41,090 nucleotides of DNA, from the IMG/VR virus record IMGVR_UViG_3300027784_000009, positions 1 through 41,090 of that record. One strand, given 5' to 3'. Under the pieces are notes generated by a model that was given only the letters and a program-made list of their open reading frames with translations, was not told the origin of the DNA and made no database searches. The position numbers and the translations under genes are program-made. The stretch is from a virus. Within the stretch, counting starts at the first letter, position 1; every line of letters begins with the position of its first letter. This document shows positions 5,039-38,858 of this stretch, one piece after another.

Positions 5039-5911
5039 TTAGCTTGTTTCAGTTTCTATCATAGTAATTCTTGAAACAGCATAATCATTGATAATTACGA
5101 TTCCAACTTCTTCATATATGACCCATCCTAAACGAAGTTTCTTAGGATCATCAGCAGGAAGAACTGTAATATCCTGACGAATTGGGAAAGCACCAACAGT
5201 TTCAGGTGAAGCAACAACTAAAACTGTATCTTTATCCATTCTAGAACTAACATGAATATCAGCAGTCCACAAGTGTCCATAAAGACCAGTAGTTATAATT
5301 TCCCTCTGAGTTGCTTCATCAAAGAAGTCTTTACCCAAAGTTCTAATTGATGCATACTGGAACGCATGAGTTACTATTTTAGCAGCAACTAAATCATGCT
5401 GTTCAATTTGTTTAAAAGCTTCATTCAATGCTTGAACTGAAAGTGTGCCAAAGTTATCAACTTGTTGTGCTGCAGGAACAGCAGCAATTAAAGCATTAAA
5501 TATATTTGTATCTTCTTCTTTTTGGATAGCTTCTTTTGCTTTAATCTGTGCCCTGTCAACAATATAAAAACGTCTAGCTTTTATTTCAGATAAACGAACT
5601 GTTGGATTCGCAGCTATTTCAAAAGTAGGAACCAACACTTCTTCGCCATCCTGAATCTGATCAGGTACAGCACCTCTACGAGAAACAACCCATGCTATAG
5701 AAGCAACATCTCTTTCGTATCTTGCAAGAGCACCCTGCGGAAGTTCATCAACCATAAGTAATTTTCTTCCTACAGCTTGATACTCTAATGACCTACGAAT
5801 TGGCTCTACCATAGCCTGGGCTAATGCTGTTCTACCTTCATCAGTTTCTAATGCTTGCGCAATTACCATTTCTTTATCTTGGTCTGTAAGACCATTCTTT
5901 GCAATACTCAT
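5039..5911 (-). CDS. Major capsid protein (HK97-like)
   Basis: The 290-residue product has the length and pattern of a HK97-fold capsid protein without a long scaffold domain. It has an N-terminal helical arm (to about residue 45), an E-loop-like region near 75-105 (VSRRGAVPDQIQDGEE), a long spine-helix region near 115-145 (RAQIKAKEAIQKEED), and a C-terminal A-domain part with TADIHVSSRMDKDT followed by IRQDITVLPADDPK and GIVIINDYAVSRI. The AAGGAG ribosome site is strong. Position supports the call: it follows the protease-scaffold and decoration genes and has its own terminator. The identification rests on pattern and gene order; no single catalytic motif exists for this family. Confidence 0.85.
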   Translation of the reverse strand: MSIAKNGLTDQDKEMVIAQALETDEGRTALAQAMVEPIRRSLEYQAVGRKLLMVDELPQGALARYERDVASIAWVVSRRGAVPDQIQDGEEVLVPTFEIAANPTVRLSEIKARRFYIVDRAQIKAKEAIQKEEDTNIFNALIAAVPAAQQVDNFGTLSVQALNEAFKQIEQHDLVAAKIVTHAFQYASIRTLGKDFFDEATQREIITTGLYGHLWTADIHVSSRMDKDTVLVVASPETVGAFPIRQDITVLPADDPKKLRLGWVIYEEVGIVIINDYAVSRITMIETETS

Positions 5912-5991
5912 AATATTTCTCCTTTTAATTTTCTATTTAAAGGTCTTATTTATTAAATAAGCCTATAATATAGTCTAATTAATAATTTAAA

Positions 5992-6549
5992 TTATATTCT
6001 TAAGACAACTCCAAAGAAGTCACCTAATGTCATACTACCGATAGGAAGATCAGTTCCAGGGACACCACTGTCATACCCTTTAGTAGCACTTACACAAATC
6101 GCAACACTATCTGCATCTATATCGTTATCAAGTCTAGCCCATTTACCACCACTATCAGAAGTGAGAGACTGATTGACACCAAGATCTCCAGATGCATCAC
6201 ATAAGTCATCGCTTATCCAGAATTTTCCACCTCCATGATAAACAGTAACTTTATCAGAAGCTAAAGTTTCATTAAAGAAATCACTTACCCTACTTTGTGT
6301 AAACATAGTGTTGTTACCTGCACCAAGAAGAACCTCATCAGAATAAGCATTATTTCTTGCGTTAGCTTCTCTAGAACTATCACCAGCAACACCAATAATA
6401 GCCTGACCTCTTGCTCCTCCTGCTGCTGGTTTAACAACAGTTTCACCATTTTCTTCATCTAGTTCTAATAACATACCACCATCAATAGTAGCATCGTTAG
6501 CTACTTTATACATATCCGCATTTACATGATACTCAACTATAAGAGCCAT
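5992..6549 (-). CDS. Probable capsid decoration or minor head protein
   Basis: The 185-residue product is acidic and rich in Gly, Ala and Asp. It has a beta-rich pattern and a central segment (TQSRVSDFFNETLASDKVTVYHGGGKFW, described here by its key residues S-D-F-F-N-E-T) seen in small structural proteins encoded beside phage capsid genes. It has a clean start with AAAGGAG upstream and sits between the scaffold and the major capsid gene, the usual place for decoration proteins. I infer an outer-surface head protein; a role inside the head cannot be ruled out. Confidence 0.55.
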   Translation of the reverse strand: MALIVEYHVNADMYKVANDATIDGGMLLELDEENGETVVKPAAGGARGQAIIGVAGDSSREANARNNAYSDEVLLGAGNNTMFTQSRVSDFFNETLASDKVTVYHGGGKFWISDDLCDASGDLGVNQSLTSDSGGKWARLDNDIDADSVAICVSATKGYDSGVPGTDLPIGSMTLGDFFGVVLRI

Positions 6550-6573
6550 AATTACTCTCCTTTACTTTAAATT

Positions 6574-9500
6574 TTAATTTTTTCCATAAGTTTTTCTTAA
6601 TTGAGTTAATCCATCTTCATCAGCTTGTATATTTCTTTTTTCTAAAGAAAATAAACTTGCCAATTTTTTTGATAATTCATCTTGTGAATTTCTAACATTA
6701 CTTGCCTCATTTATTACTATGGCTTGAGACATACCATCTGACTCAGTATCGATTCCTTTTTTCTCTGCAAATATAGATTTTTCAAAATCTCTTATTTGAG
6801 CAGGACGATAAGATTTTAATTCATTAATTTTTGTTTGCAGTTCAGAAGAAGTTATTCTTCCACTTTCTAACATTCTACCTGCAACTCTTATCGCTTCGGA
6901 ATCCGAATCGCCTTCAGCGATTACTGTGCCTTTATCTTTAGTCTGTTTTTCAGGACTTATATCTTCACCCTCTTGCCCCATTAATGCATTATCTGCAGGC
7001 AAAGAAGGATGATTATCTGGCGATGTAGGTCTATCTCCTAATGTTTCTGTTTCAGCTCCAATAGCAGATTCATTACCTGATCCTTCTGTTTTATCAGGTC
7101 CTGTTTCTGTAAACTCTGGTTCTTTCCCTATTGGTCCTGTTTTTTTATTTTGAACAGGTTGAATATCCTTATCATCAGCAACTGGTTCTTTAGGTTCTAA
7201 TTTTTTCTCTCCAGCTTCTAATATCCTATCTGCTAAACGACCTAAACCAGATTTACTAGATTCAAAACCTGCCATATGTCTCATATCAAAATCAGAAGAT
7301 GCTGTTTCGACTTTACCTTGTCCATCTTCTCCACCAGTATAAGTAGCATCACCACCACTTAAACCAACCTCTTCTTCATTACCCATTGTTCCTTTATCAG
7401 AAGGAATTTTCGGTTGAGGTTTATCTTGTGGATTAAGATTAGGATCTTCTTTACCCATTATAGCACCATCTCTCGGAACACCAGGTTTTTGTGCTGACGG
7501 TATTGTCTTATCTTCATGTCCTATTTTACTACCTTCTTCTCCAGCGGTATAATTTCCTATTTCAGGTGTATCCTGAGCTTTCTGTTGTTGAATTTCTGTT
7601 TGTCCTGCTTGTTTTTTCAAAGAATCAATTACAGAACTTAAATCTAAACTTATTTTTCCAGATTTACCAATTTGACTTTTCATATTAGAAGCTTCCTTGT
7701 AACTATATTCACTATCATTATTAGCTATCTTCTCTCCATTATAACTAACTTCTAATTTACTATCAGAAATTCCTTTATTTTTTTCTTCTGCTAAATCTTC
7801 TTTAAATTCAGTACAAGGTTTTTTATCTCCACAAGGCTTAGTTTCATCAATAAATTCTTCCTCTGTTATTTCATCTGAAAGAGGTTCTTCTACAGGTTCT
7901 TCCACTACATCTTCCACATCTTCTACAGGTTCTACAGGTTCTACAGGTTCTTCTGGAACAATATCAGTAACTTCTTCTCCTTCTAAAGCTTCTCCTGTTT
8001 CTTCATTAATTTGTTCTACAACATCTTTAGGCAATTCAATAGTAACAGTTCCTTCATCTACAAAAGGATCTATATCCTCTTCAATATCATCTTCCATATC
8101 ATCAATTGGCATTCCACTATCATCTGGTGGAGTATCATCTGTTTCAAATGATTCTTCCCCAAGTTCATCTGCAAATAGTTGTTCAGGTTCTACAACAGCC
8201 ATCTTCAATATATCGCAAACACTTACTGCTTCTCTTATAGTTAAACCAGATCTTACCTGGTCTTCAATACATTCTTCATCACCTGAAACATCTGACCATG
8301 ACTCTGCTACTTTAATTGCTAATTTATCATTATAAACATCAGCATTTTTTAACTGATTACATACACAATCATATAAAAGCTTTCCTTCACAAGGTCCACT
8401 TAAAGCAACTGCATTTTCTCCAAACCTTCTAGCTAATTTTTCTCTACAACTTTCGATAGGGAAGTTTTCCCCATAACCACCATAAGCAACCTTATATTCA
8501 TCTATAATTGATGAAGTTTTACTAGCAGTTTTTATATTTTTTAAAGCCCCAGATTTAGACAACTTAGTAATAGTAGCAATCTTCTTCTGGAAAGTAAGTT
8601 TATCAAATTGTTCCTTACTCATTTTAATAGAAGATAAAGCTTTTACTAATTTTGCTTTTGCTCTACTACAAGAACTACATGAAACTTTATTTATCACAGG
8701 ATTATATTCCCATTGCCCATAAGCTACTTTACCTTTTTTATCAGTAGCATATGAAACTTTATATTTTACACCAGTATCAAGACAAATTCTTACACCATTA
8801 TCTATTTTAACTGTATTATCTTTACCTGTTACAGGACTAATTGATCCAAGTTCTATATTATTCTCTGCGATTTTCTGCAATGCTTCAGGTTTTAATTTTG
8901 TATAAGCAGCTATTGCAGGACTTTCTTCAGGTAACTCAAAACCTTCTCCCTCAGTAAAATCATCTAATTCTTCTGTTTCTTCTGTTTCTTCTGCTTCTGG
9001 TGTAACACCTTTATATTTTTCATAGACATTTTCTATTTTAACTGTCCATATAGAAGTACAATTATTACATTTACATTTACCATCTAATACATCTACATCC
9101 TGACTTCCACATACTCCACATATAGTACCAGGAGGCATTGGTTCCATAGATTCTTCTTCTAAATCTATATCATCATCTATTGGTTGTTCTTCAAAAGTCT
9201 CCATAGGAGCTCCCATATCACCCATTTCTGTTCCTGGCATTCCAGCTCCAGCACCTGGCATTTGAGCAGCTCCACCTTGTCCTCCCATCTCTCCACCCAT
9301 CAATTGGGCTTTTTTCTTTAATTCTTTTTTAGCTGCTGCTATCTTTTTCTGTTTTTTATCTTTTGTTTTAGACTCTACAACTTCTTCATCACCCTCTTCA
9401 TAATCTCCTTCATCTCCTTCTATTTCTACTTCCTCTTCAAATTCTATTTCTTTAACTGGGCCTTCAAGGATATCCCCAATATCATCTGGGGTTATCATAT

Positions 9501-12500
9501 CTTCTCCACCGTCTTGTATATCAATAATAAGTTCTCCATTTTTACCAACTTCTACTTTAACAATTGCAGCTGCAACTGAATCATCTCCTATTTCAGCCTG
9601 TGCAACTTTTTTAACACCTTTAAATAAAGCTTCTTTATTCTTTTTATCAGAAACATTAATATCTTCTAATGTAGCATAAATCCTATATTTACCATCTTCT
9701 GGTTTTTGAATTTCTTTCAAAGCATAATCAAAAGATGCAAATTTATCTATAAACTCTTCTTGATCATCTACAGATGAAGAAGATAATTTAGTTTGAACTA
9801 ATTCTTCTACTTTTGTCATAGCAGTTTTATTTCTTAAACTATAACCTATATAATCAATCAAATCTTCTGCTTTCATTCCTAGTTTTCCATTTTCTGCCAT
9901 TGATAAAATTAAAGCATCTTTACAAGACACATTAGGTGCCGATGCAGTTTTATGGAAATAAGCAATTTTATTAATAAGACCTTTTCTATTTTCTTCTTTC
10001 TTAGGTAAGGAATTTACGATAGCTAAAGATGCAACTTTATTTTTAATCTTATCATTATCAAGTATATAAGATACTTCTTTTGCCATTTCTTGAGGTGATT
10101 TTTTAAATCTAGCAATAGCGTCTGAAATAGTTTGTGTAGCAACTTTCATCAAAGAAACTGTATAATCTTTACTTGCCCATCTTTTCAAACCCTGAGTCAT
10201 ACTTATATTTTTTAATTGATCTTCAGTAATAGTTTCATAAGCACCTACAAACTGATGATTTTCTAATAATTGTTTAATTTGATCTTCTGTTATAGTATCA
10301 GTATAATCATCAGCGATTTCAGCACTTACAGATTTACTAAAATCTGTCCATTGTTTTTCAGTAATAACATCAGGGACATCATCAAAACGTGTTAATTCAA
10401 TAGAAGATATATTTAACTGATCTTCTGTAATAGTTTCATATGTTCCTTTTCTTTTTTGTGGACTTTCACTAGTGGTAACATTATTAGCATCAGTCTTTCT
10501 CCCAATTTGTTCTTCACTTTCTGTAACACCTTCATACACCTCTTCTTGTCTAGGGTGCAATTTTTCTTCTTTCTTCTCAAGTTGTTTTTCAGTTACGATA
10601 TCTAAATTATCCGCACTAGCTGCTGTCTTTGTATTCTCATTTTTAGTAGCCATTTTTGCTCCTATATTTTTAATTTTATTTTCTAATATTATTTTCCCCG
10701 CTTTTTCGGGATCCTCTTTAATGAGTTGCTGCATATCCTCTGAGAACTCACTTATATTTGATAATTTAAGAATATTATTTTCATTTGCTTCTGTAACAAA
10801 AAGTTCATTATCATCATCTTTACTAATAATAACTTTTATTGGGCTATTTCCATCAGAATAAACTTCTCCTAATATTTCTGACATTATATTTCTCCTATTT
10901 TTTGATAATTTTAATGCAATATTTTTTAAAGAAGATATTTTATTTAATATATTTATATTTTCTTCAGAAAAATCCTTTATTTTTTTATTAGAATCAGCAG
11001 GTTTAGTAACTGAGCCTAGTTGATTTAAATCATCTGTTACTACTTCACCTCCGAATCCTTCTGCTCTAGAAGGTCTATGATCAGGAACAGGTTGGGCAGT
11101 TGGTGCTGTATCAGATAAAGATGGTGTTGCTATATCTCCAGTTATATCTGGAGAAGGAAGTCTCCCATAACCCATTTCTGTTAATTCATCTGTAGTTTCT
11201 TGTAATTTTTGCATAGCTTCTACAAGATCAGAAACAAATTCAATAGAAACATGGTCTTTTTGTTTTAACATACTTTGAACAACACTTTCTACTTTATTCA
11301 TACTTTCTTTTAAATCTTGTATTTCCTGCATACCCCCAATTTTAGAAATAATATCTCTTGCAATAGCTTTTCTATCTACATCCTCAGTATTAGTAGAATC
11401 CTTATAAAGACCATTTACTAGATTTTTAAATGAAGCAACTTTTTTTGTAACCTCTGGAACATTTAGAACACAACTAACACCACAATCATGACATGCAGGA
11501 TTAACAACAAAACTATTTTCAATAAATCTTAAACCATAATTATGTTCATAAACTTCTGTATTGTCATGATCTATAGATTTTGAACTATTCTTAGTAGATC
11601 CACATATCGGACATTTATCATCAGTTTCAACTTTACTTTTATGATATTTACACTTAACAGTCCCAGAAAATTTTCTAGTCTTTTTTTCTTTTATATGAGA
11701 ACAGAATTCTTCTGCTGTATGTGCTTTATTATGACAAATAGAACATATCGAATAATCCACTGAGCAATTATGAGTTACTATATCATTAAGTATATAACTA
11801 TGATCGCTATCTTCATCTCCTATATCACCTACTTGTACATAATAAGTTGTATCTTTATTATCAATTATATCTACAGATTTTACTCTATGAGCTATATACA
11901 AGTCCTTATAAAAAAAAGAATCAAATTTACTTCTTAATGCTTTCTCATTATTATTTGCCTTCCAACTATATTTTTGTATTTTATCTGAAATAGAATTCGT
12001 AATGTATAAAATATGTTCTACATATTTTTTTTCATTATCAACAACAGTAGAAGATCGACATATTCTATTATGAGAACTTAAAGTAGCAGGCACATTTAAA
12101 CGTAAACATATTTTTCTAAAACCTTTTAGTAAATCAATAGATGCAGATGAAACCTGCATTGACCCCTGCCCAGAACTTGTCATATTTTCTAAAATTCTTT
12201 TTTTTACAATACATCCATCTCCGTCTATATAAGCCGCTAAAAATATTTTTTGCTTTTCTTTGCTTATGGTTAAAATATCCGAATGAATAAATTTATCATG
12301 ACTTCCACAACCTATATATTTCTTACAAATACCTGCTAAATCCTTATTCCATGTAACAAGATACAACCCATTCCTTTCAATACATTTGTCTATTCTGATT
12401 TTGTTATCAGGATATTTCTTTTGAAGAACATTTAATAATTTTACAAAATTTTTATTTTCATCATTTTCTTCATCTAGCCCAAAACAAAAACCAACTGAAT

Positions 12501-13407
12501 TAGAAGAAATATATCCTTCAGCTGCATAAACACCTAAAATGAAAGCCATTTCATCATCTATTAATTCTAAATCTTTTTCCTCATTATTAATATATTCTAA
12601 TACATAATCTCCTGGCTTTACTAAACTAGCCTCTCTAAAAATAGGATTCACTGTATCATTAATATCTTTTATATTTTTTCTATATCTTTTTTTATTTTTA
12701 TTAAAAAAATAAACATCTTCATAAGGAATAATTAAAACAGGATGTTCATAACTTAATGCTAAATTATTATTACCATTCCAATTTATATTATATAACTCTT
12801 TATGATCTTGAGTTTTACAAATAACTTTTATTTTCTCTTTTTTCCCACTATGGGTTACAACCTCATCTCCCTCTATTAACTCATCCACCCTTTTATATTT
12901 CCCATTAGACATCAAAGTTAAATCAAAACCCCTTGATGCCCCCATTGATGTCCCTGTAACATAGTTTTGTTCAATTCCTCTTGCTAATTTTGGATAAGCA
13001 ATTTTATCAACTCTCCCAATTATAAATATCCCACCTCTTTCTTCATCATACCATGCGTGTACACACTCTCCCCTAGCTTTTTCTATATCATCATTTTGAT
13101 GATTAGTAAACAAAGGCACACCAACAAAAGTATCAGCTGACTTCTTTAATTCTTCTTCACTAAAAGCATCTCCATTATCATTAGGTTCATCTTTTTTTAT
13201 AGCAAATATTTTTATATATAAATGATCTGGATATTTATCAACAGCCTCTTTTAAATCAAAACCTCCTAAATCTTCTTTATTATCTTTTACAGAAGCTGTT
13301 TTAATTTGATTAGGAAAATTAAAAATATCCCACTCTTTTCCAGTGGGTTTATTAAGTGGTTTTATTGGACATTTATAAGAAAATGTTGCTTTCTTTTTCA
13401 TTGACAT
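6574..13407 (-). CDS. Giant prohead protease-scaffold protein with an intein
   Basis: The precursor has 2277 residues. Residues 1-156 plus 548 to about 650 resemble the T4 gp21/herpes-assemblin-type prohead protease: H103 in FTNHQNDD and S154 in TGTSMG are the likely catalytic residues. An intein (157-547) interrupts right after this Ser. Then come Cys-rich segments (CSICHNKAH, CKYH, CPICG, CHDCGVSC). From about 650 the protein is low-complexity, acidic and helical, as in scaffolds. It has internal starts at M842 and M919, five I/V-T-E-[DK]-Q motifs (938-1064), a Gly-Met segment (1370-1402), a zinc ribbon (C1430, C1433, C1447, C1450) and several D...MG.E motifs towards the C-terminus. After splicing it would still be about 1886 residues. 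I infer that the protease cleaves the scaffold during head maturation. It may be a fusion of two or three genes that are separate elsewhere. Confidence 0.75.
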   Translation of the reverse strand: MSMKKKATFSYKCPIKPLNKPTGKEWDIFNFPNQIKTASVKDNKEDLGGFDLKEAVDKYPDHLYIKIFAIKKDEPNDNGDAFSEEELKKSADTFVGVPLFTNHQNDDIEKARGECVHAWYDEERGGIFIIGRVDKIAYPKLARGIEQNYVTGTSMGASRGFDLTLMSNGKYKRVDELIEGDEVVTHSGKKEKIKVICKTQDHKELYNINWNGNNNLALSYEHPVLIIPYEDVYFFNKNKKRYRKNIKDINDTVNPIFREASLVKPGDYVLEYINNEEKDLELIDDEMAFILGVYAAEGYISSNSVGFCFGLDEENDENKNFVKLLNVLQKKYPDNKIRIDKCIERNGLYLVTWNKDLAGICKKYIGCGSHDKFIHSDILTISKEKQKIFLAAYIDGDGCIVKKRILENMTSSGQGSMQVSSASIDLLKGFRKICLRLNVPATLSSHNRICRSSTVVDNEKKYVEHILYITNSISDKIQKYSWKANNNEKALRSKFDSFFYKDLYIAHRVKSVDIIDNKDTTYYVQVGDIGDEDSDHSYILNDIVTHNCSVDYSICSICHNKAHTAEEFCSHIKEKKTRKFSGTVKCKYHKSKVETDDKCPICGSTKNSSKSIDHDNTEVYEHNYGLRFIENSFVVNPACHDCGVSCVLNVPEVTKKVASFKNLVNGLYKDSTNTEDVDRKAIARDIISKIGGMQEIQDLKESMNKVESVVQSMLKQKDHVSIEFVSDLVEAMQKLQETTDELTEMGYGRLPSPDITGDIATPSLSDTAPTAQPVPDHRPSRAEGFGGEVVTDDLNQLGSVTKPADSNKKIKDFSEENINILNKISSLKNIALKLSKNRRNIMSEILGEVYSDGNSPIKVIISKDDDNELFVTEANENNILKLSNISEFSEDMQQLIKEDPEKAGKIILENKIKNIGAKMATKNENTKTAASADNLDIVTEKQLEKKEEKLHPRQEEVYEGVTESEEQIGRKTDANNVTTSESPQKRKGTYETITEDQLNISSIELTRFDDVPDVITEKQWTDFSKSVSAEIADDYTDTITEDQIKQLLENHQFVGAYETITEDQLKNISMTQGLKRWASKDYTVSLMKVATQTISDAIARFKKSPQEMAKEVSYILDNDKIKNKVASLAIVNSLPKKEENRKGLINKIAYFHKTASAPNVSCKDALILSMAENGKLGMKAEDLIDYIGYSLRNKTAMTKVEELVQTKLSSSSVDDQEEFIDKFASFDYALKEIQKPEDGKYRIYATLEDINVSDKKNKEALFKGVKKVAQAEIGDDSVAAAIVKVEVGKNGELIIDIQDGGEDMITPDDIGDILEGPVKEIEFEEEVEIEGDEGDYEEGDEEVVESKTKDKKQKKIAAAKKELKKKAQLMGGEMGGQGGAAQMPGAGAGMPGTEMGDMGAPMETFEEQPIDDDIDLEEESMEPMPPGTICGVCGSQDVDVLDGKCKCNNCTSIWTVKIENVYEKYKGVTPEAEETEETEELDDFTEGEGFELPEESPAIAAYTKLKPEALQKIAENNIELGSISPVTGKDNTVKIDNGVRICLDTGVKYKVSYATDKKGKVAYGQWEYNPVINKVSCSSCSRAKAKLVKALSSIKMSKEQFDKLTFQKKIATITKLSKSGALKNIKTASKTSSIIDEYKVAYGGYGENFPIESCREKLARRFGENAVALSGPCEGKLLYDCVCNQLKNADVYNDKLAIKVAESWSDVSGDEECIEDQVRSGLTIREAVSVCDILKMAVVEPEQLFADELGEESFETDDTPPDDSGMPIDDMEDDIEEDIDPFVDEGTVTIELPKDVVEQINEETGEALEGEEVTDIVPEEPVEPVEPVEDVEDVVEEPVEEPLSDEITEEEFIDETKPCGDKKPCTEFKEDLAEEKNKGISDSKLEVSYNGEKIANNDSEYSYKEASNMKSQIGKSGKISLDLSSVIDSLKKQAGQTEIQQQKAQDTPEIGNYTAGEEGSKIGHEDKTIPSAQKPGVPRDGAIMGKEDPNLNPQDKPQPKIPSDKGTMGNEEEVGLSGGDATYTGGEDGQGKVETASSDFDMRHMAGFESSKSGLGRLADRILEAGEKKLEPKEPVADDKDIQPVQNKKTGPIGKEPEFTETGPDKTEGSGNESAIGAETETLGDRPTSPDNHPSLPADNALMGQEGEDISPEKQTKDKGTVIAEGDSDSEAIRVAGRMLESGRITSSELQTKINELKSYRPAQIRDFEKSIFAEKKGIDTESDGMSQAIVINEASNVRNSQDELSKKLASLFSLEKRNIQADEDGLTQLRKTYGKN
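10216..10596 (-). repeat. Five I/V-T-E-[DK]-Q motifs in the scaffold
   Basis: VTEKQ at residue 938 and ITEDQ or ITEKQ at 993, 1015, 1039 and 1060 occur at spacings of about 20-55 residues. Another VTEKQ occurs in the 313-residue protein at 29105-30046. I-x-E fits the T4 prohead protease cleavage rule ([LI]-x-E), so these may be processing sites; a binding motif is the alternative. Confidence 0.6.
10651..10663 (-). promoter_or_regulatory. Second internal ribosome-binding site and start (M919)
   Basis: AGGAG lies 5 bases before an in-frame ATG. The product would begin MATKNENTKTAASADN, run 1359 residues, and contain all five I/V-T-E-[DK]-Q motifs. It lies 231 bases after the first internal start. 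Confidence 0.55.
10882..10896 (-). promoter_or_regulatory. Internal ribosome-binding site and start (M842) in the scaffold
   Basis: AGGAGA lies 6 bases before an in-frame ATG inside the protease-scaffold gene. The start would give a 1436-residue scaffold-only product (MSEILGEVYSDG...). Its strength matches the true gene starts in the window. Confidence 0.55.
11767..12939 (-). mobile_element. LAGLIDADG intein in the prohead protease
   Basis: The intein has about 391 residues (157-547 of the host). Its N-terminal block reads ASRGFDLTLMSNG and is followed by ELIEGDEV. The block-B His is in SYEHPV. Two LAGLIDADG-type motifs are seen (FILGVYAAEGYI and FLAAYIDGDGCI), so the homing endonuclease may be active. 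It ends VTHN before Cys+1. Joining G156 to C548 restores the TSMGCSVDYS sequence expected of the protease, so the first intein residue is probably Ala; a Ser1 start one residue later would leave an extra Ala. Confidence 0.9.
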
Positions 13408-14613: not shown

Positions 14614-15318
14614 TTATTTGTAAAAATATTCCACATCAGTTTCTTCATCATATATCCATGTAATATCATTATCTTCATTATAAAAAAAACTATACCTTTC
14701 AGGATTTTTTTGAACTTCTTTTATAATTTTATCATCAACATGAGTTAAATTTAAAAATATATTTAAATTTATTTCTTTTCCTTTTTCAACTATTTGAGCA
14801 AGTTCCGTAGCATCTTGTGCTATTATATTCTGAAAATAATTATCATTTAAACCATCTATACAATTACCTATAAAATTTTTTTTTTGTGCTTTTTTCTTCA
14901 ATCTATAACTTTCACCTTTTACATGTCTAGGAATTCTAATTCCCTGTAAATTATCCACTGTATAATTAGGAGCATCTTTAGGAAAAGGAACTCCCCATTT
15001 ATCATTTACATGAGTATAAGCACTATGAATAGATGTAAAATATTCTCCATAAGGAGCATATACTTTTGCTTTAGGATCATCAGGATATTTCTTTATACCA
15101 GCAAAAAATCTTTTATGTCCATCTTTAGTTAAAGCGGGCCCAACAACTACAAAATAATCAGAATTAGTTGTATAATCATGTCCTTCCCATCTTCTATATG
15201 CCATTGGCCCAATTAACTTTTCATATCTATCTTTTAACTTTTCAGATCTTTCATGATATTTTTCTTTCCACTGTATCCCCCTATCTTTTATTCTCTTTCT
15301 ACCTGCTATTCTTTTCAT
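14614..15318 (-). CDS. Conserved phage protein encoded directly after the portal
   Basis: The 234-residue product overlaps the portal stop by four bases (ATGA), with TAGGAA upstream, so its translation is probably coupled to that of the portal. It is basic at the N-terminus (MKRIAGRKRIKDRG). A central domain has the pattern YFVVVGPALTKDGHKRFFAG, then KVYAPYGEYFTSIHSAYTHV, then WGVPFP. I recall this pattern as a conserved protein next to portals in environmental phages, with no known function. The C-terminal 80 residues look like a separate acidic helical part. A head-completion or portal-associated role is inferred only from position. Confidence 0.65.
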   Translation of the reverse strand: MKRIAGRKRIKDRGIQWKEKYHERSEKLKDRYEKLIGPMAYRRWEGHDYTTNSDYFVVVGPALTKDGHKRFFAGIKKYPDDPKAKVYAPYGEYFTSIHSAYTHVNDKWGVPFPKDAPNYTVDNLQGIRIPRHVKGESYRLKKKAQKKNFIGNCIDGLNDNYFQNIIAQDATELAQIVEKGKEINLNIFLNLTHVDDKIIKEVQKNPERYSFFYNEDNDITWIYDEETDVEYFYK

Positions 15319-18300
15319 TTGATATTTCCTATTAATATTAATTTTCCTATATTATTTGGTAAATTTTTAACATTAATTCCTATGTTATTTTTATTTTCTT
15401 CAAGATATTCATATACAGATGAATATTTTTCCATTAACTCAGATGATTCATTTTTTTCACTAGTTTTTTTTCTTTTCTTAATATCCCTTGCAGCTTCCAC
15501 TATGTTTTTATAGACAGTATCAGAAACAGCATCAATATGATCCTCTATTGCATCCTCATTAAATCTAAGAATTCTCCATCCAACATTTGCTAATTTCTGA
15601 TCTCTCAATCTATCTCTTTGAACAAAATCTTCCCTTTGATGCCATATACTACCATCACTTTCTATTCCAACACCTATATGAGGATAAGCAAAATCAAGAA
15701 CAAAAGGTCTTTCCTCTCTAGGTAACTGAACTTCATATTGACCATATAATGGATATGGTATATTTAAATCTCTTAATAATTTATACATTTTCTGTTCTAA
15801 TTTTGTTAAATTAAATTTCTTCATCTGAGGTTGCTGAACAGTATCATCCTGCTTACCTTTACCTCTTTTAGTTATTTTAGGCAAACTAGAAGCAGCCGCA
15901 CCTTCCATACCACCCATTCCTCCAGCTCCCATATCTGCTCCTATACCTCCCATCTCACCCATACCTTCCATACCTCCCAATCCACCCATATCGCCTTCCA
16001 TTCCTCCTACATCTCCCATAGGAGCTCCTCCTCCCATCGGAGACATTCCGCCTAATCCTCCCATACCACCCATCATATCGCCACCAGCTCCTGGCATCAT
16101 ACCAGTAGCCGATGCAACGGCATCTTCTTCTCTACGCTTTTCTATTTCTGTATCATAATCTAATCCAAGCTCTTCTAAAATAGTATCTGCAGATACTAAT
16201 CCTTTATCATATAATTGAATCATAGTTTGAATTTTATTTGTGTTATCTCTAAGATTTAAATCATTCCATATAATTTCTGGATATAAATAGACAGCCTCTC
16301 CAATCATTTCAGATTCTTTTTCATCTATAAAACCCTGCATCATAGCAACAGGTAAAAAGATATGCCTTTCTACCCATCTTTTTAATTTATTACGCCAACT
16401 TTCTAATCTTTTAATCAATACTTCGACACCAACTTGAGCAGAAGAATAACTTGACATTTCACCATTTAAGATAGCTTGATTTAACATAAAACCATCTAGA
16501 ACCTCTTTGCCAATCTGCTCTATTTCTTGTGTTACATTATGAATTTTGCCAGAGTTGCCCTGTATTGTTAATTTCCCATTATACCTAGTTACAATAAATC
16601 CAGAATCTACAGTCACACAGTAAACTTTATCATTATATTTCTCACGAGAAATATTTTTATTTCTGATTGTAAATTTTGTTGATTTCCTATTTTTAGCAAA
16701 ACTAATTCTATAAATATCATTGCAATTTTCATTTTTTGCTTTTTCTAAATGAATATTTGAAAAATATCCCATTTTTAATAAAATTTCAGAAAAATCATCA
16801 GATAATTTTTTAGAAACAGTATTATACCTTGAACGTTTGCTGCCCAACTTAGTAAATCTTATTGAACCATCACCATTCATCATAGATTGATAAATTATGC
16901 TTAAATATTCTGACGGCAGATTTTTAATCCAAGTAGGAATATTTTTAGTTGCAGAATTTGCTCCAAATTCATCTGATAGATACCTTGCTATTGAAGAATT
17001 AAACATAAACGTTAAAATTGGGACATTACCTCTGTCGTCAATGTGTGTCCATACATTAGGATTAACCTTCTTGCAGATATTCTCAATATCAGAATAGTGT
17101 TCACTATCGATTTTTTGAGTTATTCCACAAGCCTGTATCTTTTTATCTTCAGGAAAGTTTCTATTGTTCTCTATCTTGCATCCACCCTCTGAAATATAAT
17201 AGCCAACAAATTTTAAATATTCTTCCAAAGTCAAATGAGAAAGTGGTGAATTTTTAAATGGCAATATATCTGGTATAAATCCTTCCCATTTAGCAGTAGA
17301 AATAAATTTATCATTATGAATAACATCTTTTGCCTGAACTTCTATTAATTTGCCATTTCTTTCAACGAGCATTTTATGATTAGGAGTTACAGAAATATCT
17401 AATGATTTATGCTTAAACCTAATTAATTCACCATTAAAATCATACTCATGATATTCAAGTGGTTTTACAAACGTTATAAACCCTGTATTTTTATTATACG
17501 AAGCAACCAAATCATTAGGATTTAATTCGTTAAATAACTTAAATCCGTTATTAGTAAGTATTTCAGTTTCTTTAGCATGACAGGCCCCATACCACTCATA
17601 ATCAAAAGCATGATGTGTAACAACAGTTAGATTAGGGTCATTAGCAACTGCAGATAATTGATTAACAACATCTTGAATATCATCTTGTTGTGCAGGACGA
17701 TCTTTATCTCCTACTTTAACAACTCTAATAGGTAAAATTAAACGTTCAGCTATAATCCAGTTAGCTGTCATAATTTTCGTTTTATAAGCAAGCATAGTAA
17801 ACATTCTTTGAATTATAGGTGTCCCATAGTTCCCATAAGGAGAAGCATTATGTTTAAGATGAGTGGTACATCTAGATGATAATGGGATAGGATTCCCAGA
17901 AGATACTAAAGCTATAAATTCAGTTGGTAATTTTTCATATATTTCTTTAGGTCTTTTCCTTTGAACTATTTGTTTTAATTCTTCATCAGGAACTAGATAA
18001 AAAGACGGAGTGTTTGAAAGGGCATTACTTTCAACTTCTATATAATCAGGATTTAAAATTTTAATATCACTAAATGTCCCATCTTCATGACGACATTTTT
18101 GTCCATCTATAGTTACACCTTTTCCTCCACAACGTTTACACTTTATTTCCAAGAAAGGAAAAACATCCCCTAGTAAAAAATATTCATGACTTATATCATT
18201 TAATCTTTCAGCTAATTCTAGTTTTTCAACTAGATTTTCATAATATTTTAATATTTTCCTATTCCTACATTCTAATTTAAAACCAGATAATGGAAATTCT

Positions 18301-19115
18301 GAGTAAAAATCAACGCCTGCTGCAACCTTTGGTTCGTTACTATTATGAACTACACATCTATTAACACAATAGCTATGCTCTCCTTCTATAGATAAATCAT
18401 AAACTTCCCCTTTGTATGGTTCAATATCTAAATTAACAACAGCTCTATACAGTCCATCATCTTTTGGAGTAAATAATCTATCTCCTATTTCTAAGGATTT
18501 AGCTGTATCCCAAACTTTATCTAAAACAACATCTTCATACTGTTTTAATCTTTCTCTCTTTCTTCTTTTAGACGGAGTTGTTGCATCACTTTTTACCCAT
18601 TTTTCTAAAGGAACTCTTGGTATACTATGATTAAATGTAGTCTTTATTTCTCTATTTATTCCCCAAACTTTTATTTTTACAATATCTTCTTCCGTATGCC
18701 TTATATTAACCTTTTGAACTTTTCTTTTAGTTCCATCTCCAGCTATAATAAAATCACCTTCTTTTACATCCAAAATCTTTTTTTCTGTTCCATCAGCCAT
18801 TAAAACATAATTATCTGGTGTAAAACAATAATAAAACCTACACCATTGGTAGGCTTCTCTTCTCTTACTAGCAATCTGCCAATTTTGTGGAGTGTGAAGT
18901 GGAGAAAAGAACATTGGTTGTGTCCATACGGTACTTGCTCCTGCTCCTGCATATTGTGCATTTTTTGTTATAGGAAATGATGTTGTCCCAGATTTTGGAT
19001 AATCTATACTACTATCACCAGTTTTATTATTTTCAACTACATACCCCCCAGAAGATGCTACTTTTCTTCTTTTATTTTCAGGAGAATCATCTCCAACTTG
19101 TAATTTTATACTCAT
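15315..19115 (-). CDS. Portal protein with two inteins and a C-terminal nuclease-like domain
   Basis: The precursor has 1266 residues. Removing the inteins at 97-258 and 512-854 leaves about 761. The portal parts read NEPKVAAGVDFYSEFPLSGF, YFLLGDVFPFLEIKC (followed by a CKRCGGKG zinc-type Cys pair), IQRMFTMLAYKTKIMTANWIIAERLI and YEWYGA|SGKIHNVTQEIEQIGKEVLDGF, the usual wing, stem and crown order. A Gly-Met-rich linker (about 1005-1072) then leads to a domain at 1100-1210 resembling DUF559/Vsr nucleases: FVLDFAYP, GIESDGSIWHQ and RILRFNEDAI. The portal is the ring through which DNA enters the head. The start is an ATG with AAAGGAA. The nuclease part might act in packaging or DNA entry; this is inference. 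Confidence 0.85.
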   Translation of the reverse strand: MSIKLQVGDDSPENKRRKVASSGGYVVENNKTGDSSIDYPKSGTTSFPITKNAQYAGAGASTVWTQPMFFSPLHTPQNWQIASKRREAYQWCRFYYCFTPDNYVLMADGTEKKILDVKEGDFIIAGDGTKRKVQKVNIRHTEEDIVKIKVWGINREIKTTFNHSIPRVPLEKWVKSDATTPSKRRKRERLKQYEDVVLDKVWDTAKSLEIGDRLFTPKDDGLYRAVVNLDIEPYKGEVYDLSIEGEHSYCVNRCVVHNSNEPKVAAGVDFYSEFPLSGFKLECRNRKILKYYENLVEKLELAERLNDISHEYFLLGDVFPFLEIKCKRCGGKGVTIDGQKCRHEDGTFSDIKILNPDYIEVESNALSNTPSFYLVPDEELKQIVQRKRPKEIYEKLPTEFIALVSSGNPIPLSSRCTTHLKHNASPYGNYGTPIIQRMFTMLAYKTKIMTANWIIAERLILPIRVVKVGDKDRPAQQDDIQDVVNQLSAVANDPNLTVVTHHAFDYEWYGACHAKETEILTNNGFKLFNELNPNDLVASYNKNTGFITFVKPLEYHEYDFNGELIRFKHKSLDISVTPNHKMLVERNGKLIEVQAKDVIHNDKFISTAKWEGFIPDILPFKNSPLSHLTLEEYLKFVGYYISEGGCKIENNRNFPEDKKIQACGITQKIDSEHYSDIENICKKVNPNVWTHIDDRGNVPILTFMFNSSIARYLSDEFGANSATKNIPTWIKNLPSEYLSIIYQSMMNGDGSIRFTKLGSKRSRYNTVSKKLSDDFSEILLKMGYFSNIHLEKAKNENCNDIYRISFAKNRKSTKFTIRNKNISREKYNDKVYCVTVDSGFIVTRYNGKLTIQGNSGKIHNVTQEIEQIGKEVLDGFMLNQAILNGEMSSYSSAQVGVEVLIKRLESWRNKLKRWVERHIFLPVAMMQGFIDEKESEMIGEAVYLYPEIIWNDLNLRDNTNKIQTMIQLYDKGLVSADTILEELGLDYDTEIEKRREEDAVASATGMMPGAGGDMMGGMGGLGGMSPMGGGAPMGDVGGMEGDMGGLGGMEGMGEMGGIGADMGAGGMGGMEGAAASSLPKITKRGKGKQDDTVQQPQMKKFNLTKLEQKMYKLLRDLNIPYPLYGQYEVQLPREERPFVLDFAYPHIGVGIESDGSIWHQREDFVQRDRLRDQKLANVGWRILRFNEDAIEDHIDAVSDTVYKNIVEAARDIKKRKKTSEKNESSELMEKYSSVYEYLEENKNNIGINVKNLPNNIGKLILIGNIK
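15486..15818 (-). other. DUF559/Vsr-like nuclease domain fused to the portal
   Basis: These are portal residues 1100-1210. D1141 (FVLDFAY), E1152 and D1154 (GIESDG) and H1159 fit the PD-(D/E)xK-type core of DUF559 proteins, followed by a Lys/Arg-rich helix and WRILRF. The domain begins with a short tag (MKKFNLTKLEQ) like those at the starts of separate proteins. Confidence 0.7.
16554..17582 (-). mobile_element. LAGLIDADG intein in the portal protein
   Basis: The intein has about 343 residues (512-854). It starts CHAKETEILTNNGFK, has the block-B His in VTPNHKML, and has two LAGLIDADG-like motifs (FVGYYISEGG and YQSMMNGDGSI). It ends TIQGN before Ser+1, so the usual penultimate His is replaced by Gly. 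Joining the flanks gives WYGASGKIHN, a smooth portal sequence. Confidence 0.88.
18342..18827 (-). mobile_element. Mini-intein in the portal protein
   Basis: The intein has about 162 residues (97-258). It starts CFTPDNYVLMADG with VKEGD after it, has the block-B His in TTFNHS, and ends YDLSIEGEHSYCVN...CVVHN before Ser+1. There is no LAGLIDADG or HNH motif, so it should splice but not home. Confidence 0.9.
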
Positions 19116-30127: not shown

Positions 30128-32035
30128 TTATCTCTTTCTATTTGGCCAGCTATTTCTTCTTTCTAATTGAGAAGAAACCTGTTGTCCAGTTCCATATCCA
30201 TAAGGAGTTCCTTGCATAGAACGCCATAAAACCTGATTTGAACTAGGAGCTCCAAGACTTACTCTATGTGATGATGGTAATTTATTAACTGAATGATCAA
30301 CAGCATTATAAGTAGCAGCAGCTAGACAATCTACTATATCATCAGTTTTTTGCCCATCTCCTTCGCTCTTTGGAAAAACCTTAAATCCTTTTTCAGTATA
30401 TTTTCTTTGAAGTTCTATCATTTCTTGTCTTAAAACATGGTGATAAGGAATTTTTATTCTACCTAAATTAATTAAGTCTTCTAACTCTCCATATATTAAA
30501 TACTTATAATGATTATTGAACCTTGTTAATTTATTTGGAATATTATTTTTTCTTAATTTTTTTATACTTTCCCTACTTGTCCATTGATCATAAGTTAATA
30601 ATCCTATATGAAATCTTCTCTTTAATCCAATTATATATTCTAAAACTTTATCTGGATCAATAGGACCTCTAGTAGGTTCCCAAAATTTTATATGATCTAC
30701 AATTATATTATATTCAGATTCCTTAGTTTGCTTATTAAGATAATATTCTTTATGCAAAATAACTAATGCATAATTATGGCTAGATGTTGCAGGATCAATA
30801 TGAGCAAAATAAACTTTACCAGGTTCTCCTTTAGCTTTATCCTGTATATTAGTTACAAAACATTTATTAACTTGTTCTTCAGTAAAGAAATTTTGAGCTC
30901 CAGTTCCACTAAATTCAGCTCCAAACTCCATTAAAAATTCTGCTTCGCTCATATCTTGTCGTTGCTCTCTTAAAGACTCCCTTGTATGAGTAGGATTAAC
31001 ATCCCAAGTAGGAAGTCTACAAGTCAACCTTCTTGGAGACTGTGGAGATGTTATAAATAGATCATAAAACTTCCCCTCTTTCGCTCTTGGGGATGATATA
31101 CTAATAACTTTACCATCATAAAATCTTTGTGAAACTATTTTTTGCCCATGTTCATCTAATTTAAAATTTCCTTTTTCATCTTTAAAATATTCTCTTCTAC
31201 AATAAGTAGTTACAGTTGGAGTTAAAGCAGAATAGATTCTATCTCCTGATGAAGAACCCCCAGTTTTCTTATAAGAAGCAACCTCATCAAGTATTAGAAC
31301 TATACAACCAATACCTAACAAAGTATCTGAATTACTATGTCCAACTATAACACCTACAGAGCCTCTTTTTGGAGGTAATCCTTTTTCCTTAAATTCAATA
31401 TTATCTTTTTTATCTTGTGGGGTTAATAAATATATAGATGATTTTCCAACTCCTTCTTTAATATATTTATCAGCAAAATAATTACTAAATAATAATTTTT
31501 CTCTAATTTCTTTAAAAGCTGTCCCAGCCTGTTCTTTAGAATTAGCTACAGTTAAAATATTAATTGGAGCAGAAGAAGATAATTCATATAACTGATAAGG
31601 ATCTCCACCAGGACATTCTAATATTTTCATTGCTTCATATAAAGCAATAATACTTACTAAAAAATCTTTTCCACTTCGTCTTCCCCATACTAAAACCAAT
31701 TCATTAAATAATTCTCCACTATGATATTTTCCTAATAAATTACCTCTATCATTATTATCTAATCCTAGTTCTTCACAAGCGGTAATTTCTTCTTCTGATA
31801 ATTCTATATTTTCATTACCTATAGTCCCTCTGTAGAATGCCTTTAAAACAGTTTTTTGCATTGGGTAAAGAACAATTGGATTGGTAGGATGATTTGCTAA
31901 ACCTAGCCATTCAGGGCTTTCACAAAATGTTATTATATCAGGGATATACCCAGTAGAGCTAGACTGAGATGAAATACTTGATTTTAACTGAGTTAAAAGA
32001 TCTCCTAGTTTTTTTTTCTTTTTATAATTTGCCAT
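30128..32035 (-). CDS. terL: Terminase large subunit
   Basis: The product has 635 residues from the ATG at 32035, the start I prefer over a TTG at 32050; neither has a strong ribosome site. Residue numbers here count from the TTG. Walker A is VWGRRSGKD (residues 121-129). Walker B is VLILDEVAS (251-259, acidic pair D255-E256). The C-terminal nuclease has D419 (AHIDPATSS), D488 (LLTYDQW) and D570-D571 (GQKTDDIVDCLAAAT), as in RNase-H-like terminases. It translocates genomic DNA into the procapsid through the portal and cuts it. No small terminase subunit is recognisable; the 151-residue protein just upstream is a candidate by position only. Confidence 0.95.
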   Translation of the reverse strand: MANYKKKKKLGDLLTQLKSSISSQSSSTGYIPDIITFCESPEWLGLANHPTNPIVLYPMQKTVLKAFYRGTIGNENIELSEEEITACEELGLDNNDRGNLLGKYHSGELFNELVLVWGRRSGKDFLVSIIALYEAMKILECPGGDPYQLYELSSSAPINILTVANSKEQAGTAFKEIREKLLFSNYFADKYIKEGVGKSSIYLLTPQDKKDNIEFKEKGLPPKRGSVGVIVGHSNSDTLLGIGCIVLILDEVASYKKTGGSSSGDRIYSALTPTVTTYCRREYFKDEKGNFKLDEHGQKIVSQRFYDGKVISISSPRAKEGKFYDLFITSPQSPRRLTCRLPTWDVNPTHTRESLREQRQDMSEAEFLMEFGAEFSGTGAQNFFTEEQVNKCFVTNIQDKAKGEPGKVYFAHIDPATSSHNYALVILHKEYYLNKQTKESEYNIIVDHIKFWEPTRGPIDPDKVLEYIIGLKRRFHIGLLTYDQWTSRESIKKLRKNNIPNKLTRFNNHYKYLIYGELEDLINLGRIKIPYHHVLRQEMIELQRKYTEKGFKVFPKSEGDGQKTDDIVDCLAAATYNAVDHSVNKLPSSHRVSLGAPSSNQVLWRSMQGTPYGYGTGQQVSSQLERRNSWPNRKR

Positions 32036-32050
32036 AAATATACTATACAA

Positions 32051-35294: not shown

Positions 35295-38200
35295 TTAACC
35301 ACATTTACTAAAACCACAACTACACATAACACAGCCTTCTTGTCTTACTAATTTCCCACCACACTCTGGGCAATCTTCTCCATGTATTGCAGTTCCATTA
35401 GATATATATTTTTTTAAAATCCTTGAAAGAGCTTTTGCAAAACTCTGTAAATCCCCTTGTGTTTTTTCTAATTGATGAACAACAAAAGATATATCTGTTC
35501 CATGTCTTAAAGCAGTAGAAACTAATCTAGTAACTGCTTCTTGATCTTCATTTATATACCTTCCTATATTCTCATGTAATATATTATTCTCATCAGATAT
35601 ATCACATAAAGCATATTGACCTCTTTTTATTTTTTTCAATAATCCTTCTTTTAAATTTCTTTGAAATAAATTATCATTATCTTTTCCAGCAAATACTTCA
35701 TATGGCTCTCCTAAATGCAATCCTATAATAACAAAAAACGGATTTTTTCTAACACTACAATGATAAATATCACAAGGTAATATTTTTGGTCTTTTAGGAG
35801 CATCTGTTTTAAATATTTTTTGTTCTTCTTTTTTCTTATCATCTATTAAAACTCCAGACCTAGAATTTTTTCTATAAACAGTAATACCTTTAGCCCCATT
35901 TTTCCAAGCTGTCTCATAGATTTTCGCAACTTCTTCTTTAGGAACATCTTCTGGTAAATTTACTGTACTAGAAATACTATGATCATTATGTTTATTAGCA
36001 ACACATTGAATTTTTACACGACTTTCCCAATCTATATCTTCTGCACATGCACTATACCATGGAGATTTTTCTATGTTTGTTTCTCCTGTTATTTCTGACC
36101 ATACCTTAATTTTAGGATGATATACTTTAAATTCTTGCCATTTATCACCATTTTCATCAACAAAATCTACTCTAATATCTTTATCATTTTCATTTATCTT
36201 TTTTCTTCTTTTATAAGAAATTTGAAAACAAGGCTCTATACCTGATGTTGTCTGAGTAAGTAAGCTTACTGTTCCTGCTGGAGCAACTGTTAATAACCCT
36301 ATATTCCTTCTTCCGTATTTTTGCATATCTTCATATATTTCTTTATCTTCATCTTTTATTCTGAGCAAAAAAGGATTTTCTTTTTCTTTATCTTTATCCC
36401 ATACATTAAAACTTCCTATTTCCCTAGCTATATCAACAGAAGATCTATAACAACCTAATTTTAAAGTTTTAAATATTTTTTCTATTAATGAAATACTTTC
36501 TTTACTTCCATATTTTAAACCACAAGCAGCAATAGTATCTCCGATACCAGTTACTCCCGTCCCTGTTCTCCTACCGTCTTCACAAGCTTTTTTTATACTT
36601 TGCCACAACTCTAATTCATCTTTTTTTATCTTATAAGGTTCAGGATCTTGTTTTACTTTTCCTATTATCCTATCTATATGTTCTATTTCCAGATCTACAA
36701 TATCATCCATAAACCTTTGAGCAATTTGAGCATGTTTATAAAATTTATCATAATCAAAAACAGCATCTTTAGTAAAAGGGCTAGATACATAAGAATATAA
36801 GTTTAACAATAATAAACGACAACTATCATGTTCACTAAGAGGAAGTTCACTGCAATTATGGACAAGTATTCCATTAGCAGAAAATTGGCTTATCTTAGGA
36901 ATAGTGCAATCATAAACATCTTCTTTTCCTAAATATTTTATTTCAGAAACTTTTGATACAAATTCATCTTTATACGGACCTCTTTTATAATTATTTACGA
37001 TTGATTTAAGTTTATTTTGCTTCTCACTATCTGAGAACCCTATTATCTTATAATATTTATTTATATTATCTTTAGAAATATGAAGTTCGTGATTAGCTTT
37101 GCATAAATATTCTTTATATCCGAATTTTCCATCTGGAAGACTTCTTATACCTTTCTTTTTTCTGTTTGTATATATCGTTGACATTATCCCTAGACTAGAT
37201 AAAATCATCTGAGCTATTTTTAAATTCCTAACATTTGTGTTAGATAGACGAATTGCATATCTATTCTTTTTATCTTCTTTTAATACTGTCCCGTCTGCAT
37301 CCATCCATCCCTGAATAAATCCAATACAATATTGACTACTTGAGTTTTTCAATATATCATCTTTTATTTTTTTTGATGAAGATATCCCATGTTTTTTAGC
37401 CATCAAAGAGACTCCTTTACTCTTTAAATCAACTCTATCGCACTTTTCAACAGAATACCTATTAGGTGTTTTAGAAGACCCTATATCAGAACGACACTTG
37501 ATCCCAGATGATAATATTCTATTAAGAGCAATAGATTTCATCTCCTCTTTATTCTTACCCCAATAGCTTAATACCCCTGATTCCCCACTAAAAACGCCGT
37601 CTCCAAACAAACTCCCACATAACCATCCTTCTTCAAAAGTCCCTTCTCCTCTCCATGAAAATTTAGAATTATTAGAAAGAACAATCTCGTCTCCAATTTT
37701 TAAATTTGAAGATTCAATAAAAACATTTATTCTTTTTCTCCCAACTTTTCTGGAAACTTTAATTTTATGATTACCTGTACATTTTAAAAAAAATCCTCTA
37801 TTTGTTGATACCTCATAGATATCTCTATACCCAGTATAATAAAACCCTCTTTCATCAGATGAGTACGAGACCCCATCTACTATTGAATTAAAAGGCTTTC
37901 CTATTAAGTTTTCAATCTGTCTATTACCTTTATCTGTTAATATCCACGTATCTTTCGTTAGGCATGGATTTGTTGACTTTGTTTTAAACTCATCATAGCA
38001 ATCTGCTGGACTTTCTTTTATTATATTATCCCAAAAAAGCAACCCTGGTTCTGCTGAGCTCCAAGCCATTGCTATTATTTCATCCCATACTTCTTTTGCA
38101 TTTACCATTTTTGATATCTTTTTATTTTCATCTTTTGCATCTACAGGGAACCTTTGTTCATAATTTTTATTATTTTTTACAGCTTTTAAAAATTCATCAG

Positions 38201-38858
38201 TTAATCTAACAGAAATATTAGCACCAGTTATCTTATTAGAATCTTTTTTTGATTTAATAAAAGAAATAACTTCTGGATGATGTACAGAAATAGTAATAAT
38301 AAGTGCCCCCCTTCTTCCCGCTTGTCCGACTTCTCTTATAGTATTACTATATCTTTCCATAAAAGGAATTATGCCAGTACTTGTTTTTGAAGCATTTCTT
38401 GTAAAAGAACCTTTAGGTCTTAAATTAGAAATATCAATTCCAATTCCCCCTCTTCTTTTTGAGATATTAACTATTTCTTCATCTGTTTTACAGATTGAAC
38501 TATAACTATCCAAAGGAGAAGAACCTACAAAACAATTACTAAGACTAACATATCTATGTTTATCCCCTATTCCACTCATTCCACTACCTTGTGGAACTAT
38601 ATACTTAAAATCTTTTATATAATTATATATTTCTTCATTTGACAATGGATTTTTAAATTTACCTTTTTCAATTCTAGCAATCTCTTTTGCTATTCTTTTA
38701 TGCATATCATCAGGATTAGATTCTAATAAATTCCCTTCTCTATCTCTCAGGGCGTATTTATCCAAAAAAACTTTTGCTGGCAAATCTTCCCCATTAAAAT
38801 ATTCTTTACTACATTCGAAAGCTTCTTTATAAGTATAAGTTTTTAATTCATTTGACAT
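35295..38858 (-). CDS. nrdJ: Class II (B12-dependent) ribonucleotide reductase with an intein
   Basis: The precursor has 1187 residues; without the intein (299-668) it has about 817. The family patterns are YVSLSNCFV (C109 of the redox pair), RRGGIGIDISNLRPKG, STNP|CSELPLSEHDSCRL (Cys669, the thiyl-radical residue), and ITVYRKNSRSGVL. The C-terminus is CPECGGKLVRQEGCVMC, then CGFSKCG, the Cys-rich tail typical of adenosylcobalamin-dependent NrdJ. The enzyme reduces ribonucleotides to deoxyribonucleotides without oxygen and without a NrdB subunit, and none is present here. There is no ATP-cone domain at the N-terminus. The start has GGGGGA upstream. It implies a host that makes or imports B12. 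Confidence 0.9.
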   Translation of the reverse strand: MSNELKTYTYKEAFECSKEYFNGEDLPAKVFLDKYALRDREGNLLESNPDDMHKRIAKEIARIEKGKFKNPLSNEEIYNYIKDFKYIVPQGSGMSGIGDKHRYVSLSNCFVGSSPLDSYSSICKTDEEIVNISKRRGGIGIDISNLRPKGSFTRNASKTSTGIIPFMERYSNTIREVGQAGRRGALIITISVHHPEVISFIKSKKDSNKITGANISVRLTDEFLKAVKNNKNYEQRFPVDAKDENKKISKMVNAKEVWDEIIAMAWSSAEPGLLFWDNIIKESPADCYDEFKTKSTNPCLTKDTWILTDKGNRQIENLIGKPFNSIVDGVSYSSDERGFYYTGYRDIYEVSTNRGFFLKCTGNHKIKVSRKVGRKRINVFIESSNLKIGDEIVLSNNSKFSWRGEGTFEEGWLCGSLFGDGVFSGESGVLSYWGKNKEEMKSIALNRILSSGIKCRSDIGSSKTPNRYSVEKCDRVDLKSKGVSLMAKKHGISSSKKIKDDILKNSSSQYCIGFIQGWMDADGTVLKEDKKNRYAIRLSNTNVRNLKIAQMILSSLGIMSTIYTNRKKKGIRSLPDGKFGYKEYLCKANHELHISKDNINKYYKIIGFSDSEKQNKLKSIVNNYKRGPYKDEFVSKVSEIKYLGKEDVYDCTIPKISQFSANGILVHNCSELPLSEHDSCRLLLLNLYSYVSSPFTKDAVFDYDKFYKHAQIAQRFMDDIVDLEIEHIDRIIGKVKQDPEPYKIKKDELELWQSIKKACEDGRRTGTGVTGIGDTIAACGLKYGSKESISLIEKIFKTLKLGCYRSSVDIAREIGSFNVWDKDKEKENPFLLRIKDEDKEIYEDMQKYGRRNIGLLTVAPAGTVSLLTQTTSGIEPCFQISYKRRKKINENDKDIRVDFVDENGDKWQEFKVYHPKIKVWSEITGETNIEKSPWYSACAEDIDWESRVKIQCVANKHNDHSISSTVNLPEDVPKEEVAKIYETAWKNGAKGITVYRKNSRSGVLIDDKKKEEQKIFKTDAPKRPKILPCDIYHCSVRKNPFFVIIGLHLGEPYEVFAGKDNDNLFQRNLKEGLLKKIKRGQYALCDISDENNILHENIGRYINEDQEAVTRLVSTALRHGTDISFVVHQLEKTQGDLQSFAKALSRILKKYISNGTAIHGEDCPECGGKLVRQEGCVMCSCGFSKCG
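36855..37964 (-). mobile_element. LAGLIDADG intein in the ribonucleotide reductase
   Basis: The intein has about 370 residues (299-668). It starts CLTKDTWILTDKGNR, has the block-B His in CTGNHKI, and has two LAGLIDADG-type motifs (WLCGSLFGDGVF and FIQGWMDADGTV). It ends GILVHN before Cys+1, which is the catalytic radical Cys of the STNPC loop. Splicing gives STNPCSELPL. Confidence 0.93.

Follow-up and report, generated by a model that had tools for sequence, protein, structure and literature searches.

The portal gene in this window, by which we mean the whole 41,090-nucleotide stretch of viral DNA analysed, almost certainly encodes a composite protein in which the portal is followed by a flexible Gly/Met-rich arm and then by a C-terminal nuclease domain of the Vsr fold, with an intact, invariant active site and a history of gain in a single clade. 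Portals are regarded as structural rings, and the enzymes that cut DNA are placed either outside the head (terminase) or in separate proteins. Both portals and DUF559 nucleases are already known; a clade-wide fusion of the two was not found in the open-licence literature that we searched.

The protein is encoded by a stop-free minus-strand frame of 1266 residues, running from position 19115 to 15315 (Table 1). Searches of this frame against Pfam returned two intein regions, a weak portal match and a DUF559 domain (PF04480) at residues 1102-1205, the last of these scoring well above the family cut-off (E 4.9e-9; 36.5 bits against 20.6). The portal assignment is clearer in an intein-free homologue, L023, which matches the PHROG portal families (E 1.8e-43) and whose full-length model, although of moderate overall confidence (mean pLDDT 65), has a core that resembles many solved portals in Foldseek searches, including those of Pakpunavirus, HFTV1, T4 and lambda. 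By both sequence similarity and predicted fold, then, the product is a tailed-phage portal protein. The region of L023 that corresponds to the Gly/Met-rich linker is predicted to be disordered (pLDDT below 50). It gives way to a short island of the form AAAx..-[IV]-x-K[RK]GK, which is recognisable in nearly all of the approximately 57 homologues listed, while the tail that follows the nuclease contains K-x-A-S and ends in '..LGxxxLIG' in many relatives.

We modelled the nuclease with AlphaFold, using an alignment of 46 homologous domains. Confidence is high across most of the domain (pLDDT 93-98), and helices and strands occur in the expected order. The best match among solved folds is the Vsr-like homing endonuclease I-Bth0305I (3r3p; E 6e-5, TM 0.83 by target length), and other good matches are Vsr itself (E 0.003), the 5hmC-specific enzymes PvuRTs1I and AbaSI, and the DUF559-like Neisseria protein 3hrl; TnsA also appears, but weakly (E 0.2). 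A sequence profile search of the PDB returned the same family, with a match to I-Bth0305I/Vsr at E 0.004, whereas the Vsr mismatch repair family proper (TIGR00632) was not reached (18.5 bits against a cut-off of 97.85). Seven residues (E1107, D1141, E1152, H1159, D1168, R1171 and D1172) are invariant in the 46 sequences and an eighth, D1154, is Asp in 44 and Glu in two, a degree of conservation that excludes a chance match. From sequence and model together, the C-terminal domain is a predicted nuclease of the Vsr fold (DUF559, PD-(D/E)xK-like) with its active site intact. The initial annotation had proposed that the portal frame continues into a DUF559/Vsr-like nuclease, and this is borne out by the unbroken frame and the Pfam match; the positions that it gave for D1141, E1152, D1154 and H1159 are exact, and the structure prediction that it suggested yielded a confident Vsr-like fold rather than an unrelated one, the acidic residues being kept throughout the alignment. 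Its reading of the string FNLTKLEQ as a tag belonging to a once separate protein was mistaken. This string is the first helix of the nuclease, it reads (M/I)IKLTKLEQ in relatives, and it contains the invariant E1107. The wider idea of a free protein joined to the portal nevertheless fits a single gain on a portal backbone. Its further proposal, an action on DNA during packaging or on entry into the cell, is plausible; it did not take into account a position within the head, which portal topology predicts.

Table 1. Positions in the window of the portal gene, its parts and the head and packaging genes discussed in the text.
Feature	Position	Strand	Basis
Portal protein ORF with predicted C-terminal nuclease domain, 1266 aa	15315..19115	-	Unbroken frame; Pfam; homologue matches
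Intein 1, mini-intein without endonuclease, aa 97-258, between RFYY and SNEPK	18342..18827	-	Pfam Intein_splicing; absent from intein-free homologues
Intein 2 with LAGLIDADG-type endonuclease region, aa 512-854, between GA and SGKIHN	16554..17582	-	Pfam; homologue comparison
Gly/Met-rich flexible linker, aa 1005-1071	15903..16103	-	31 Gly and 16 Met of 67 residues
Conserved island GAAASSLPKITKRGKGK..., aa 1072-1097 (26 residues), at linker-nuclease junction	15825..15902	-	Homologue comparison
Predicted DUF559/Vsr-like nuclease domain, aa 1098-1210; E1107, D1141, E1152, D1154, H1159, D1168, D1172	15486..15824	-	Pfam, model, conservation
C-terminal tail past nuclease, aa 1211-1266 (56 residues)	15318..15485	-	Lower model confidence
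Large terminase (TerL), own nuclease acidic residues HIDPA, YDQW, DDIVD	30128..32050	-	PHROG terminase; alignment with LR745208 TerL
Head maturation protease fused to very long head protein, 2277-aa ORF, with intein	6574..13407	-	PHROG head maturation protease and intein models
Major capsid protein	5039..5911	-	PHROG major head protein, E 2.4e-64

The fusion is a property of a clade rather than of one genome. Searching IMG/VR with the nuclease domain recovered 34 loci, and in all 34 portal sequence lies upstream in the same frame, a few of the contigs being truncated. A search with the portal core recovered 80 loci, down to 29% identity, and we built a tree of 80 distinct portals after removing duplicates and adding GenBank relatives. 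The nuclease is present in 61 of these, absent from 15, and four portals are incomplete; a search for the same fusion in other phage portals had also been suggested in the initial annotation. All 61 group together in a single clade that has 65 tips and a support of 0.911, and no complete member of it lacks the domain. The lineages outside the clade have no DUF559, among them Bacillus phage G and phage-G-like contigs, Eggerthella phage LE2-3, mycobacteriophage Myrna and Virus Rctr197k; the fusion was not found among 50,697 GenBank phages, where the only hit was a stand-alone DUF559 in Bordetella phage PHB09. A portal search of GTDB genomes and a TerL search of viral contigs each found no relative. 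Two loci have unusual arrangements. In L121 (6000-9019), one of the 61, the portal gene is broken into several frames with DUF559 in a separate open frame, which may reflect assembly error, introns or decay, and in L111 the phage-G-like portal ORF (5671-8718) has a 485-residue tail of unknown kind where the nuclease would be. The simplest history suggested by these sequences is a single gain of the nuclease on a portal that already bore a flexible P/G-rich tail, apparently in the common ancestor of a single large clade of uncultured and often giant phages, after which it was kept.

Since its acquisition the domain has been constrained. Values of dN/dS for the nuclease lie between 0.01 and 0.11 in pairs for which dS could be estimated, similar to those of the portal and usually below those of the linker, and the nuclease evolves under purifying selection. 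Distances between nucleases track those between portals (r=0.72; none of 2000 permutations gave a value as high), and in eight large records, 170-548 kb in size, no DUF559 was found besides the portal copy.

Portals are normally 12-mers whose crown, the C-terminal end, lies inside the head. In solved structures the crown projects into the head as the innermost portion of the portal, and in T4 gp20 it is built from C-terminal residues 451-524 (PMC4493910). Because the crown is both internal and C-terminal, the nuclease is expected, from portal topology, to lie within the capsid, tethered by arms some tens of residues long. About twelve such domains would then hang round the inner mouth of the channel, most probably as components of the machinery that assembles and fills the head. 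There they might finish the head by cutting or trimming DNA at the vertex that holds the portal (possible targets being free ends, the end packaged last, and DNA that is wrong or unmodified), working in addition to the nuclease of the terminase. A head-completion or packaging nuclease that works like T4 gp4 is the reading that we favour, with rather less than even confidence. We rank a head function first because the domain is retained almost universally and its active site does not vary, which fits such a role better than that of a sporadically distributed weapon. A precedent is provided by T4 gp4 itself, whose non-specific DNase activity is required for packaging according to a report cited in PMC7824862. 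Against this reading, a full head that contained a nuclease would put its genome at risk, unless the enzyme were latent or specific or the DNA were protected; moreover, TerL already has a nuclease, and neither solved portals nor most related ones need such a domain to work. The TerL of this phage, aligned with one relative (that of the uncultured phage LR745208), retains the three acidic positions of its nuclease, so the portal domain is not its replacement, and the idea of a substitute for a lost TerL nuclease is unsupported. As for protection of phage DNA, N6/N4 methylase genes occur in seven of the eight large records; they are compatible with self-protection but are common in large phages, and no cytosine-5 methylases that could serve this purpose were found in the eight.

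A second reading, the main rival to the first and possible but doubtful, is that the nuclease is an effector delivered by the virion: the head maturation protease would cut the arm, and the loosened domains would stay in the head until they were ejected with the DNA to attack the DNA of the host, of plasmids or of rival phages, the phage's own modified DNA being spared. The architecture lends itself to this: the arm is long and predicted to be disordered, and a conserved island stands immediately before the nuclease. The methylase genes just described could supply the modification. The gene for the head maturation protease also adjoins that of the portal, and this enzyme could be a candidate for processing the arm (the long head protein to which it is fused contains repeated 'ITE(D/K)Q' elements). 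Furthermore, a short motif is enriched in head proteins. Written K-x-A-[S/Q] or, more narrowly, K-[KTIVYF]-A-[SQ], it occurs 17 times in the head module of the window against 2.0 expected, and 35 times in the head regions of L023, L055 and L059 (4.3 expected) as against 10 times in the non-head regions of the same three genomes (6.6 expected). In portals it is found near the N-terminus, just past the nuclease in many relatives and, in L061-L068, between linker and nuclease. The motif could on this pattern be a candidate protease or capsid-targeting site, but cleavage there is only putative. It is also less typical of effectors engaged in an arms race to be kept almost everywhere with an active site that never varies, and domains bound to the portal remain behind unless they are cut loose.

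T4 endonuclease VII associates with the portal protein gp20 and is thought to resolve DNA there. By analogy, the domain might debranch or repair DNA during packaging, resolving junctions, mismatches or nicks in replicating DNA, and the Vsr-like fold does include enzymes that act on mismatches. We consider this unlikely, given that branched DNA needs to be resolved before it enters the channel and the domain is predicted to lie on the inner side. Less likely again is a catalytically inactive domain that holds DNA and organises the DNA end or its spooling in the head. Its expected location near DNA and the basic KRGKGK island would suit such a role, but across 46 diverse sequences the His and the catalytic acidic residues do not change, apart from one position that is Asp or Glu, while the rest of the domain varies.

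The portal genes also carry inteins, which typically occupy conserved sites in important proteins. Inteins are absent from many portals that carry the nuclease, which is therefore independent of them; this rules out the idea that it is part of an intein system. In relatives the portal gene is a hot spot for inteins: a single gene can hold as many as four, and at least four further sites are occupied (L023-equivalent positions of approximately 89, 106, 346 and 382). In L039, L040, L086 and L107 an intein with an endonuclease region lies inside DUF559 itself, directly after the catalytic Glu of ExDG, and to judge from these sequences the active site of the nuclease would be whole only once the intein had been spliced out. 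Elsewhere in the window, the large chain of ribonucleotide reductase (35295-38858, minus strand) contains a LAGLIDADG intein, and a long low-complexity repeat of VVELLEVVEHLE type is open on both strands (567-1178, minus; 603-1196, plus). That the nuclease is a selfish homing endonuclease which has lodged at the portal gene and spreads itself or the portal inteins is most improbable: although its closest solved fold is a homing endonuclease and its gene an intein hot spot, it is neither sporadic with empty alleles nor resident in an intron or intein, but is fixed and co-inherited in one clade as a single copy per record, lacks a separate DNA-recognition domain, lies outside the inteins in portals that often have none, and no nuclease-free alleles were found within the clade.

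Returning to a role within the head, we raise tentatively the possibility that a giant-phage clade carries within its heads a ring of nucleases, set at the DNA channel, that checks or trims passing DNA, or that is clipped off by the head protease and injected with the genome. If this were true, the portal would also be an enzyme acting on its own cargo, for example by destroying unmodified, non-phage DNA during packaging. A conserved and apparently active nuclease that is predicted to face the head interior, fixed in a clade whose genomes reach at least 548 kb, raises the question of how DNA is cut beside, yet not within, the stored genome. The nuclease also supplies a domain by which this phage clade can be recognised, and the portal C-terminus a virion site of fixed position where foreign domains can be carried.

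Several known systems resemble parts of this protein. The portals of Bacillus phage G (gp14) and phage-G-like contigs share a homologous core (approximately 32% identity over 90%), a P/G-rich C-terminal tail and, for phage G, a giant-phage context, but no nuclease follows their tail. The DUF559 (PF04480) and MTES_1575 restriction endonuclease families share the DF..E.DG..H..D..R core, and the domain scores above the DUF559 cut-off, but the related matches found stand alone or lie in defence and homing proteins whereas the domain here is fused to a portal. I-Bth0305I and Vsr provide the best fold matches, from which the portal nuclease differs in having neither a homing context nor a recognition domain and in being part of a structural protein. 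The large terminase nuclease acts at the portal vertex, where the portal domain is expected to act, but it has an RNase H fold, works outside the head, and is separately encoded and intact in this phage. Finally, T4 gp4 is, as predicted for the domain described here, a virion-associated nuclease of the restriction endonuclease fold, reported in work cited by PMC7824862 to be required for packaging and morphogenesis; it is, however, a separate, unfused, TnsA-like protein, and its proposed analogy with the portal nuclease is one of fold class and presumed function.
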